Shown piece by piece: positions 13,358 to 51,854 of a stretch of 64,000 nucleotides of DNA. The notes beneath the pieces were generated by a model. That model worked only from the letters and a program-made list of their open reading frames with translations, had not been told where the DNA came from and searched no databases. A program made the position numbers and the translations under genes. Source of the stretch: Natrinema salifodinae (GTDB taxonomy: Archaea > Halobacteriota > Halobacteria > Halobacteriales > Natrialbaceae); assembly GCF_900110455.1 (NCBI RefSeq), contig NZ_FOIS01000004.1:124001-188000 (forward strand), written 5' to 3'. The stretch's first letter is position 1. Every line of letters begins with the position of its first letter.

Positions 13358-15056
13358 TCGACTCACCTCCCGCGTTCGGTCCCGTCTCGTCGGCGTCGAC
13401 GCCGTCCTCCGCCGACTCGAGGCCCATTTCGGCCCGCTCGCCCAGCGCCTCGTCGACGGCGGCCAGCAGCGCGCGGGCCTTGGCGAGCGTCTCGTCGTAC
13501 TCGCTGTCGGGATCCGAATCGTGGACGATGCCCGCGCCCACCCGGAGGTGGTACTCGTCGGCCTGGCGGACCAGCGTCCGGATGACAATGTTCAGCGTCG
13601 CCCGACCGTCGAAGCCGAAGATGCCGACGCTGCCCGTGTAGGGGCCGCGCCTAGTCGCCTCGAGTTCGTCGATGAGCTCCATCGTGCGGGGTTTCGGCGC
13701 GCCGGTGATCGTGCCGCCGGGGAAGACGGCCGCGACGGCGTCGGCGAGCGTCTCGTCGGGGCGCAGGCGGCCGGTGACGTTCGAGACCAGGTGCATCACC
13801 TCGGAGTAGCGGTCGATCCGCCGGTACTCCGCGACGTCGACGGAACCGTACTCACAGACCTTCCCGAGGTCGTTGCGTTCGAGGTCGACCAGCATCGCGT
13901 GTTCGGCGCGTTCCTTCTCGTCGGTCAGCAGGTCCGCCTCGAGTTCGTCGTCTTCCGCGGGCGTCTCGCCGCGCGGGCGCGTGCCGGCGATCGGCTCCGT
14001 TCGGACGAGATCACCGATGCGTTCGCCCTCTCCCTCTCGCGGACGCTGCCCGCTCGCGGATTCCGAGGTGCCGTGCACCTCGCGCTCGAGCAGGAGTTCG
14101 GGGCTCGCGCTCACCAGGTCGGCCGCCCGGAACTCGAGCAGCCCCGAGTAGGGCGCCGGGTTCACCCGCCGCAGGGCGTCGTAGGCCGCGACCGGGTGGA
14201 CCGCGGCGGGGGCGACCAGGCGCTGAGAAATATTCGCCTGGAAGGTGTCGCCGTCGCGGATGTACTCCTTGACCCGATGGACGCGGTCGGCGAAGGCCTC
14301 GCGGCCGCAGTCGCTCTCGAAGGTTGCTTCCGGGGCCGAGACGGGCGGCTCGCCGATCGTCGGATCGCCCTCGCGGACGGCCCGGGCGAGGTCGAGCGCG
14401 CGGGTCCGGCCGCGCTCGTAGGCCGCCTCGAGGTCGGCGTCTGTCGGCTCGCCGCCGTCGGCGGGGTCGTCGACGCGCGGACACGCTGTGATCCGCAGCG
14501 TCACGTCGCCGTCCCCATCGGTCGGGGCCTCCCAGGCGGCGAGCCGATCGTAGACCGCGACCTCGAGCCGGGGCAGTCCCCGGTCGTCGACGGCCGAGTC
14601 GGGCAGGGCCTCGAGTTCGCGGGCGATATCGTACGAGAGCCAGCCGACGGCGCCGCAGGGGAAGGGCACGTCGCAGTCGCCGCGGGCGAGCCGGTCGCCG
14701 GCGAGCAGTCCTTCGAGCGCGGCCAGGCTCGGTGCCTGGCCGTCTCCCTCCTCGTCGGGTCCCGCTCTCCACCGTGGGACCGCGTCGGGGCCGACGGTGA
14801 GCCGGTCGACCGGATCGACGCCGAAGTAGCCCCAGCCGGCCTGGCCGCCGGTCGTCTCGAGGAAGGCGTTGCCGTCGCCGTCCCGAGCGCGCCGGTAGAC
14901 AAGGAACGGATCGGCGACGGACACGCGGACTTCGACCGGAACTCGGAGCCCCGGGCGCGTCGCCGTGGCGTCACGACCGCTCGCTTCGTCGCCCGCACGC
15001 CCGCGAGCGGCGGCACGAAACGAGTCGAGCGTCGTGACGACGCGCGGATCGCTCAT
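13350..15056 (-). CDS. pabB: Aminodeoxychorismate synthase component I
   Basis: 568 residues, chorismate-binding enzyme family. The C-terminal catalytic domain (about 250-540) shows [55 protein letters not shown] and [18 protein letters not shown], the ordered signature of PabB/TrpE. The PIAGTRPRG segment has Ala at the position that is Lys in many PabB enzymes and Ala in TrpE-like ones, so paralogue assignment by motif alone is not clean. The enzyme aminates chorismate using ammonia from PabA. ATG at 15056 preferred to an upstream frame extension. An acidic insertion lies at about residues 330-345. It heads a unit with pabA and, ancestrally, probably pabC. Confidence 0.85.
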
Positions 15057-50584: not shown

Positions 50585-50812
50585 TCATCGATTCATTCGG
50601 TACAACCCCGTTCGAACGATGACGACCCCCGCGAACAGCGTTATCACACCCGTGAGCGCCCACTGTGCCGATCTCCCGGTGATCGGTTCGCACTCTGTGG
50701 CGCACAGAACGGGATCTATCTGGACGATTCCGAGACCTTGAACGGTCCATAAGATCCCGAGAAACGATACGACGACGCCGAGGATCGTCAATACGGTCGC
50801 TCTCGTATTCAC
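50585..50812 (-). CDS. Small two-helix membrane protein
   Basis: 75 residues from GTG. Helix 1 is TVLTILGVVVSFLGILWTVQGLGIV and helix 2 SAQWALTGVITLFAGVVIVRTGLY. A loop with two cysteines (VLCATECEPITGR) lies between them, possibly extracytoplasmic. A/T-rich promoter-like sequence (GCAATTAAACTATTCC near 50830) lies upstream. No family name recognised. Confidence 0.6.
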   Translation of the reverse strand: MNTRATVLTILGVVVSFLGILWTVQGLGIVQIDPVLCATECEPITGRSAQWALTGVITLFAGVVIVRTGLYRMNR

Positions 50813-51043
50813 GGTGAGTATACGACGAGGAGAGCAATTAAACTATTCCAGATAGCGTTCGTGTTGAATTTATGATCTCGCTGTACTTGAAGGAGTGGTC
50901 ACCTGATCCGGAACGACCGACCGCGACAGAGACGCGCCGTGCATCTCGCAGCGACTCGGCGATTTCCCGAACGACCGTCAGTAGCACGGTGCGGCATCCC
51001 GCTGCGTTTCTCGCGGGACCTTTCGTTCCCTCCGTTAGCAGTA

Positions 51044-51050
51044 GTTATAA
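51044..51050 (+). promoter_or_regulatory. TATA-like box upstream of candidate RNA
   Basis: GTTATAA at this position is followed 26-32 nt later by the GGAAGCC stem that opens the structured region, the distance expected between a haloarchaeal TATA box and the transcription start. Confidence 0.4.
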
Positions 51051-51075
51051 GTCACCATAGGTCAACAACCCAACC

Positions 51076-51172
51076 GGAAGCCGGTCTCCGAATACGAGAG
51101 TAGGGGGCTCGTCGAAACGCCCCGGGTGCTGGAACCACCCGAGACCTGGCTTCCAATCCCCGCAACGGGATT
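51076..51172 (+). ncRNA. Candidate structured RNA with three-way junction
   Basis: A 13-bp closing stem (51076-51088 with 51141-51154, one bulged T) encloses two adjacent hairpins: GGGGC/GCCCC (51104-51108 with 51119-51123) and GGGTG/CACCC (51124-51128 with 51136-51140, loop CTGGAAC). There are no unpaired bases between the two hairpins or between the second one and the closing stem, which suits coaxial stacking. A fourth hairpin AATCCC/GGGATT (51155-51160 with 51167-51172) abuts the closing stem. A TATA-like box lies about 26 nt upstream of the first stem. No open frame fits. It is not a tRNA, 5S, 7S or RNase P RNA by its motifs. It could be a small RNA or a ligand-binding leader of the zinc-finger gene at 51296. 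Confidence 0.5.
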
Positions 51173-51295
51173 CGAAAGCCATGATTGCGTACATTCTACC
51201 GGGATATAAACGTCCCGCACGACTGACGTATCGCCCGCCACGACCAGCGATCGCCCCGTCGGAGAGAGTCGCCCGAGCGGCGGCTGGAGGTCGCG

Positions 51296-51457
51296 ATGCG
51301 TAACGACGTCGAAACCGACGACTTCGAGACGCCGTCGCTGCCGACGTGTCCGGTCTGTGGCGCGCCCGTCACGCTACTCATCGCGACCGGTCCCGTCGAG
51401 GGAACCGCCAGGCCCTGCGGCTGTTCCGTCCCGCCGGGGACCCTCCAACGCGACTAA
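51296..51457 (+). CDS. 53-residue CPxCG-type zinc-finger protein
   Basis: ATG-to-TAA frame with a strong ribosome-binding site, GGAGGT, five bases before the ATG. The product has CPVCG at residues 18-22 and CGC at 41-43, giving two cysteine pairs 20 residues apart, as in small haloarchaeal zinc-finger proteins. The first 17 residues are acidic (RNDVETDDFETPSLP). It is shorter than usual annotation cut-offs but has consistent codon bias. A TATA-like GGGATATAAACG near 51200 may give it its own promoter downstream of the candidate RNA. Function unknown; such proteins can regulate biofilm, motility or RNA functions. Confidence 0.7.
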   Translation: MRNDVETDDFETPSLPTCPVCGAPVTLLIATGPVEGTARPCGCSVPPGTLQRD

Positions 51458-51854
51458 CCGCGCGAGTTCGACCCGCGGGGGCGTCCTGCCATCCTCGCAC
51501 CCCCGTTCCCAAGACGCCCGAGACTCCGAACTTCGCGCGACTCCCGGCGGACAGCCGGCCGTTCGACGGCGGTCGGGACGTTCGAAACCACCGCTCTCAC
51601 CACCGAACCCACCGCGTCCGTGACCTCGGCAGCGGACTCGCCGCCGCCGAGTCCGATCGAGCGGCCGGCCCGCAATCCGGGTTCGCCGTCGAGCATTTGG
51701 GCCCTGTCTCGGCGTGTTCGCCGCGATGCAGTTCGCCAGGCGGGGAGCGATGGACGGCGGCCGACGCGCTCGTCTTCGGTCGCGGGCGAATGGAAGGTCA
51801 AAGCGGCGTTTGAGTTTGGGGGAGGTTCTTTTCCGTTCCGTGCGGTCCGTCGGT
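51458..51854. other. Gene-free stretch before the SIMPL gene
   Basis: 397 bp with high G+C and no convincing gene on either strand. Several overlapping frames are open only because stop codons are rare in this composition. A T-rich CTTTTCCG near 51829 may belong to the promoter of the next gene. Confidence 0.4.

Follow-up and report, generated by a model that had tools for sequence, protein, structure and literature searches.

The analysed stretch of DNA, a window of 64,000 nt from a 4.27-Mb Natrinema salifodinae genome, contains a compact cassette between two genes that, from their translations, we take to be purH and a SIMPL-domain gene. On the plus strand, to which all coordinates below refer, the cassette opens with a TATA box (GTTATAA, 51044–51050), continues into a leader with extensive self-complementarity and ends in two short open reading frames. 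The first (uORF, 51181–51303) encodes a basic peptide of 40 residues, MIAYILPGYKRPARLTYRPPRPAIAPSERVARAAAGGRDA, and has a conserved ATG and frame; the second (51296–51457) overlaps it by 8 nt and encodes a small CPxCG zinc-finger protein of 53 residues. A preliminary description of the locus had pointed out the TATA box, a 13-bp closing stem, two abutting hairpins and a fourth hairpin. Each of these is present, and the feature goes further than that account: it includes a third strand (51176–51180) and the uORF, and it occurs in many copies.

The leader (51044–51180) is predicted to form a three-way junction with an additional hairpin at its side. Its closing stem, P1, comprises 13 bp between strand 1 (GGAAGCCGGTCTC, 51076–51088) and the 3′ strand GAGACC-T-GGCTTCC (51141–51154), with U51147 bulged. 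The linker from P1 to P2 contains an optional mini-hairpin in the minimum free energy fold (TAC GAGA GTA, 51093–51102), where other copies show CGC-GAGA-GCG or GC-AACC-GC, or lack an insert. P2 (51104–51123; stem 51104–51108/51119–51123) abuts P3 (51124–51140; stem 51124–51128/51136–51140), which itself abuts the 3′ strand of P1, so that there is no linker at either junction. P4 (AATCCC/GGGATT, 51155–51172; stem 51155–51160/51167–51172) lies beside P1 and is followed by strand 3 (CGAAAGCC, 51173–51180), which adjoins the start codon. Strand 3 is the rival of strand 1 for strand 2, the GGCTTCC half of the P1 3′ strand (51148–51154), which is used by both of the folds discussed below.

The TATA box is near-invariant in 51 aligned copies (consensus over copies CAGTAG[A/T]TATAAGT), and P1 begins 26 nt past it in the window. 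Overall, the span from TATA box to P1 measures 41 nt in 29 of the 30 matches to the pattern and 40 nt in the remaining one, even though the sequence between the two is variable. Such fixed spacing across changing sequence suggests that the foot of P1 is the expected transcription start. From this spacing and archaeal promoter geometry we infer that the leader is transcribed and that the putative start region lies at 51071–51076, about 21–26 nt past the TATA box.

Folding energy on its own left it undecided whether the structure is real (plus strand z −1.78, with 12 of 200 shuffles as stable; the minus strand gives no weaker a fold, z −2.10), and the question was therefore settled on comparative evidence. 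In an alignment of 101 copies, namely those aligned to a first covariance model, 92.6% of cells are complementary versus 87.5% after shuffling. Double-change cells number 126, compared with 34.6 in shuffles and with 0 of 500 shuffles reaching the observed value, and double-sided changes occur at 16 pairs; these counts lean towards the model structure because the alignment was fitted to it and the copies are mutually related. Sliding the partner strand by 1–3 columns reduces pairing to 22–52%. Covariation is seen in all four stems and is strong in the fast-evolving P4, where 5 of 5 pairs show double-sided changes. The P3 stem GGGTG/CACCC is near-invariant and encloses a hypervariable loop of 5–9 nt, but it is exchanged for GACGTG/CACGTC or GAGTG/CACTC in distant copies. 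Two plasmid copies (L051 and L053) share 92% identity over 970 nt and yet differ by a compensatory exchange in P4. Haladaptatus copies, and single ones in other groups, show this architecture again although their primary sequence is different. At the level of sequence comparison, these observations confirm the three-way junction at 51076–51154, together with P4, as a real and previously uncatalogued RNA family. The preliminary description had proposed a folded RNA and named a lack of compensatory changes as grounds for refuting it; such changes were found, and both the covariation and the loss of pairing on sliding agree with that proposal. Separately, we observed that the P3 loop (51129–51135 in the window) is wholly different between the orthologous loci L002 and L009, which retain 92% identity over 3 kb despite the replacement, and that the P3 stem is invariant between them.

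Known RNA classes did not account for the structure. Rfam gave no match at the gathering threshold in the whole window and none even at E ≤ 5 within 50800–51500, and a search of the window for tRNA and tmRNA with ARAGORN returned only a tRNA-Thr (13676–13765) and did not detect the leader. The earlier statement that the RNA belongs to no known class thus stands as far as Rfam is concerned. Hammerhead ribozymes have a conserved core, and a hammerhead-like ribozyme was rejected on the ground that the junction lacks a conserved single-stranded core. We also considered CreTA, an RNA toxin–antitoxin system of haloarchaea that has CRISPR-like repeats and is tied to cas loci (PMC9458426). Both are small RNA-based cassettes in haloarchaea, Natrinema included, but P4 varies freely and is not repeat-like, and the copies are dispersed and ORF-linked; CreTA was rejected on these grounds.

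Of 100 related genomes covered by a DNA search, 43 contain the unit, mostly in several copies each, and the best matches take in the TATA box too. With the covariance model we counted 6 copies in the window's genome, 26–28 in two congeners and 29–32 in two other Natrialbaceae genera; some congeners carry no copy. A second covariance model, built from three genera, traced the family across Natrialbaceae and into Haladaptatus, which belongs to another family and has up to 12 copies, with single copies in a few other families of Halobacteriales. The few positives in a 247-genome sample of the phylum all fall within the same order, and phage and viral collections contained no match to the unit. 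At four places (L044, L180, G001:C67 and G009:C1) the cassette occurs in tandem pairs 0.5–1.1 kb apart.

The genomic setting of the copies varies. Among other genomes of the genus, no copy was found within 1.5 kb of the SIMPL locus (25 genomes) or of the purH locus (28 genomes). Species-specific sites, together with the existence of tandem and plasmid copies and with homology between some relatives that ends at the edges of the unit, could be taken to indicate a mobile, MITE-like cassette whose terminal structure serves movement rather than regulation. We regard this as highly improbable: neither terminal inverted repeats nor target duplications were recognised, synteny between species is preserved for some copies, and the structure goes with a start codon and reading frames, not with the ends of an element. 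The 110 flanking ORFs that we inspected include no recurrent neighbour (the top Pfam family occurs in just 4) and reveal no defence or mobile-gene neighbourhood. The genes on either side of one copy bear no relation to those of another, and the cassette therefore stands alone.

The preliminary description had left it between a leader and an independent sRNA, and the copies favour the former. Nearly all of about 140 distinct copies lead directly into an ORF right after the structure; the exceptions (L150, L174 and L256), which have a 15-residue uORF without a zinc finger or no ORF, look decayed. The start codon lies directly 3′ of strand 3 in both Natrialbaceae and Haladaptatus, even though the coding genes differ. 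Because the start codon and the coupled ORFs come after the structure, the sRNA alternative was rejected; judged by its placement, the family is a cis leader, the 5′ leader of a short mRNA.

The proposed association with a zinc-finger gene was likewise upheld, in the form of an overlapping ORF pair behind the leader. In Natrialbaceae the uORF varies in length, typically between about 30 and 50 codons, but its stop overlaps the zinc-finger start by 4, 8 or 11 nt in 103 of 108 copies, compared with 11 of 216 in control frames. A coding test of the uORF N-terminus (pN/pS 0.64–0.95) is uninformative, as silent sites there are constrained too, and the stop–start overlap is decisive instead. The two products differ sharply in charge, with a median pI of 11.7 for the uORF peptide and 4.3 for the zinc finger.

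The Cys pattern of the 53-residue zinc finger is invariant in 52 relatives, and searches of Pfam and NCBIfam found no family for it. Its structure model is of moderate quality (mean pLDDT 75.9) and weakly zinc-ribbon-like; the structures that match it best, ribosomal proteins with a zinc ribbon, fall short of significance. In copies from other genera, the downstream ORF encodes small Cys-rich proteins of other types (ECYRCDR..CCEHC, CPHCESVVVG..SCGC) and overlaps the uORF in the same manner. The Haladaptatus leader instead opens a gene whose annotation is SWIM zinc-finger protein and whose product scores above the cut-off for Pfam SWIM. Haladaptatus plasmids (NZ_CP085340 and NZ_CP085302) carry up to 17 places on one plasmid at which a similar leader joins the start of a SWIM gene. 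For L051, L053, L380 and L381 the uORF is absent from the annotation listed in the PLSDB table, itself incomplete, as is the zinc finger in several records, and the family thus seems largely unannotated.

Small zinc fingers paired with small basic proteins have been described in Halobacterium salinarum. Brz/Brb and OE2447F/Bp4 are pairs of this kind, and Bp4 (45 residues) overlaps its zinc-finger ORF by 7 bp (PMC2253796, PMC3184054). The cassette resembles these pairs in layout, combining an acidic CPxCG zinc finger with a basic protein in overlapping ORFs. It differs in that the known pairs adjoin Bat-type regulators, whereas no adjacent regulator of the Bat/HTH-10 type recurs among the 110 flanking ORFs. 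In addition, the available text of the two papers describes no structured leader for those pairs (PMC2253796, PMC3184054).

Within the leader, strand 2 is complementary to two partners. In P1 it pairs with GGAAGCC of strand 1, and it is also complementary to AAGCC of strand 3 (51176–51180), a pairing that would extend P4 to the AUG. The copies' own duplexes between strands 2 and 3 are more stable than shuffled combinations (0 of 2000 in each of three sets: all copies, the home family and the outgroups). Where strand 2 has GG, strand 3 has CC in 100 copies and GC in 13; where its first base differs, strand 3 has GC in 19 copies and CC in 1. All three strands change together, from GGAAGCC/GGCTTCC/AAGCC in Natrialbaceae to GGAAGACC/GGTCTTCC/AAGACC in Haladaptatus, and further co-changes are found in L239 (GGGTT/AACCC) and L119 (GGTTT/AACC). 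Variants of strand 3 include AAGACC, CAACCC and GATAGCC. Within the home family the pairing between strands 2 and 3 is often just 3–5 bp with an internal loop; moreover, copies that are related do not count as independent. Strand 3 thus covaries with the P1 3′ strand, which argues that two mutually exclusive folds are under selection. Upper P1, P2 and P3 can persist in both folds, as expected for a strand exchange. The fold with P1 and an open start is favoured by a median of 6–7 kcal/mol in modelled energies; access to its alternative would thus require a factor.

These features fit a translational switch. Transcription from the TATA box at 51044 would begin at the foot of P1, and the leader would fold into the P1–P2–P3 junction and then P4, with strand 3 (51176–51180) and the AUG at 51181 free. 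In the alternative fold strand 3 would displace strand 1 from strand 2, and the extended P4 would end at the start codon, while upper P1, P2 and P3 could remain in place. We infer that the exchange acts on translation by gating initiation at 51181, where the basic-peptide ORF would be translated, with the downstream zinc finger expressed through stop–start coupling. Because the leader can apparently flip its shape right before the start codon, it probably controls the amount of protein made. That the leader is a translational switch of a short mRNA, and one member of a dispersed gene family, is the reading to which we give fairly good odds. As the trigger we would first suspect a product of the cassette itself, either the basic peptide or the zinc finger (autoregulation), and then a metal or small-molecule ligand. 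Autoregulated structured leaders are familiar from genes for RNA-binding proteins, such as cspA-like and ribosomal-protein leaders. The cassette resembles them in that one structured leader precedes many paralogues of a small protein of nucleic-acid-binding type, with binding of the product being putative here.

A ligand-sensing leader, as raised in the preliminary description, is possible. A true riboswitch for a ligand or ion would treat the P1–P2–P3 junction as the aptamer and the strand exchange as the expression platform; zinc or another metal would suit the genes, which come from several unrelated families and are all small, Cys-rich predicted zinc binders. Mutually exclusive pairings at the expression signal are indeed found in the sequence, and like translational riboswitches the leader is structured and places such stems by the start codon. 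It differs from them in having no Rfam match and in a pairing that abuts the AUG itself rather than masking a Shine-Dalgarno sequence. Few unpaired bases are invariant across copies, mainly the GAA of the P2 loop (GAA(A) is kept at its 3′ side, Haladaptatus copies included). Combined with the hypervariable P3 loop, this is unlike a typical metabolite aptamer and makes a protein- or translation-sensing leader at least as likely as a ligand-sensing one. Up to 32 copies per genome, preceding paralogues rather than transport or biosynthesis genes, also argue against a riboswitch, which we consider rather unlikely. Binding of a ligand and of the product are both candidates only, and we therefore do not file the leader as a riboswitch. 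For comparison, one natural archaeal riboswitch with experimental demonstration is cited in a 2021 paper, which gives the fluoride riboswitch of Thermococcus kodakarensis as the archaeal example (PMC8241225).

Leaderless mRNAs predominate in haloarchaea (72% in Haloferax volcanii), and structured leaders are described as "not typical" (PMC4983044). That background, and the fact that strand 3 ends exactly at the AUG, would agree with a 5′ UTR whose structure is constitutive and serves to protect or process the mRNA, for instance by cleavage next to the start codon to yield a leaderless form, with strand 3 as part of a processing hairpin. Such a UTR, to which we assign only a small probability, less than that of a riboswitch, leaves unexplained why strand 2 keeps its pairing with strands 1 and 3 alike in different clades.

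More broadly, the translational switch may represent a new class of archaeal RNA, present in up to dozens of copies per genome, in which a swap between junction and start-codon hairpin drives basic-peptide plus zinc-finger or SWIM genes in response to a common signal; we would put the chances of this at about even. If so, it would be prominent among the native RNA control elements of haloarchaea, many-copied and common to unrelated zinc-finger families. As a mark of genes under common control, it would also offer a handle on many uncharacterised small archaeal zinc-finger proteins, unannotated uORFs included.

Codons 6–12 of the uORF contain a palindrome (CGGGA-TATAAACG-TCCCG, 51200–51217). 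This inverted repeat covaries (32 double-change cells versus 10.8 in shuffles), and it holds unusually conserved codons of a kind that GC-rich genomes seldom use (TAT, AAA). An RNA hairpin (a possible P5), an operator and a lineage-specific promoter are all candidate roles for it. A second TATA-like box lies within it (51203–51208), and the TATAAA is strongly kept in Natrinema-type copies, whereas other genera replace it by CTTAAA, CAAAAA or CATAAG. A promoter of the zinc finger's own, which the preliminary description had allowed for, is thus doubtful and at most lineage-specific.

Further motifs lie upstream. In Haladaptatus (L253, L242, L231 and others), the TATA box has inverted repeats on both sides, about 45 nt ahead of the leader; these are operator-like, CACTACGTAGTACATCGATGGTTTTAATACCATGTACTACATAGT for example, and differ from copy to copy. 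In one subfamily (L002, L003, L006, L009 and L012), the motif ACTCG-N10-TA-N-TT is conserved about 35 nt before the TATA box and is possibly an activator site.
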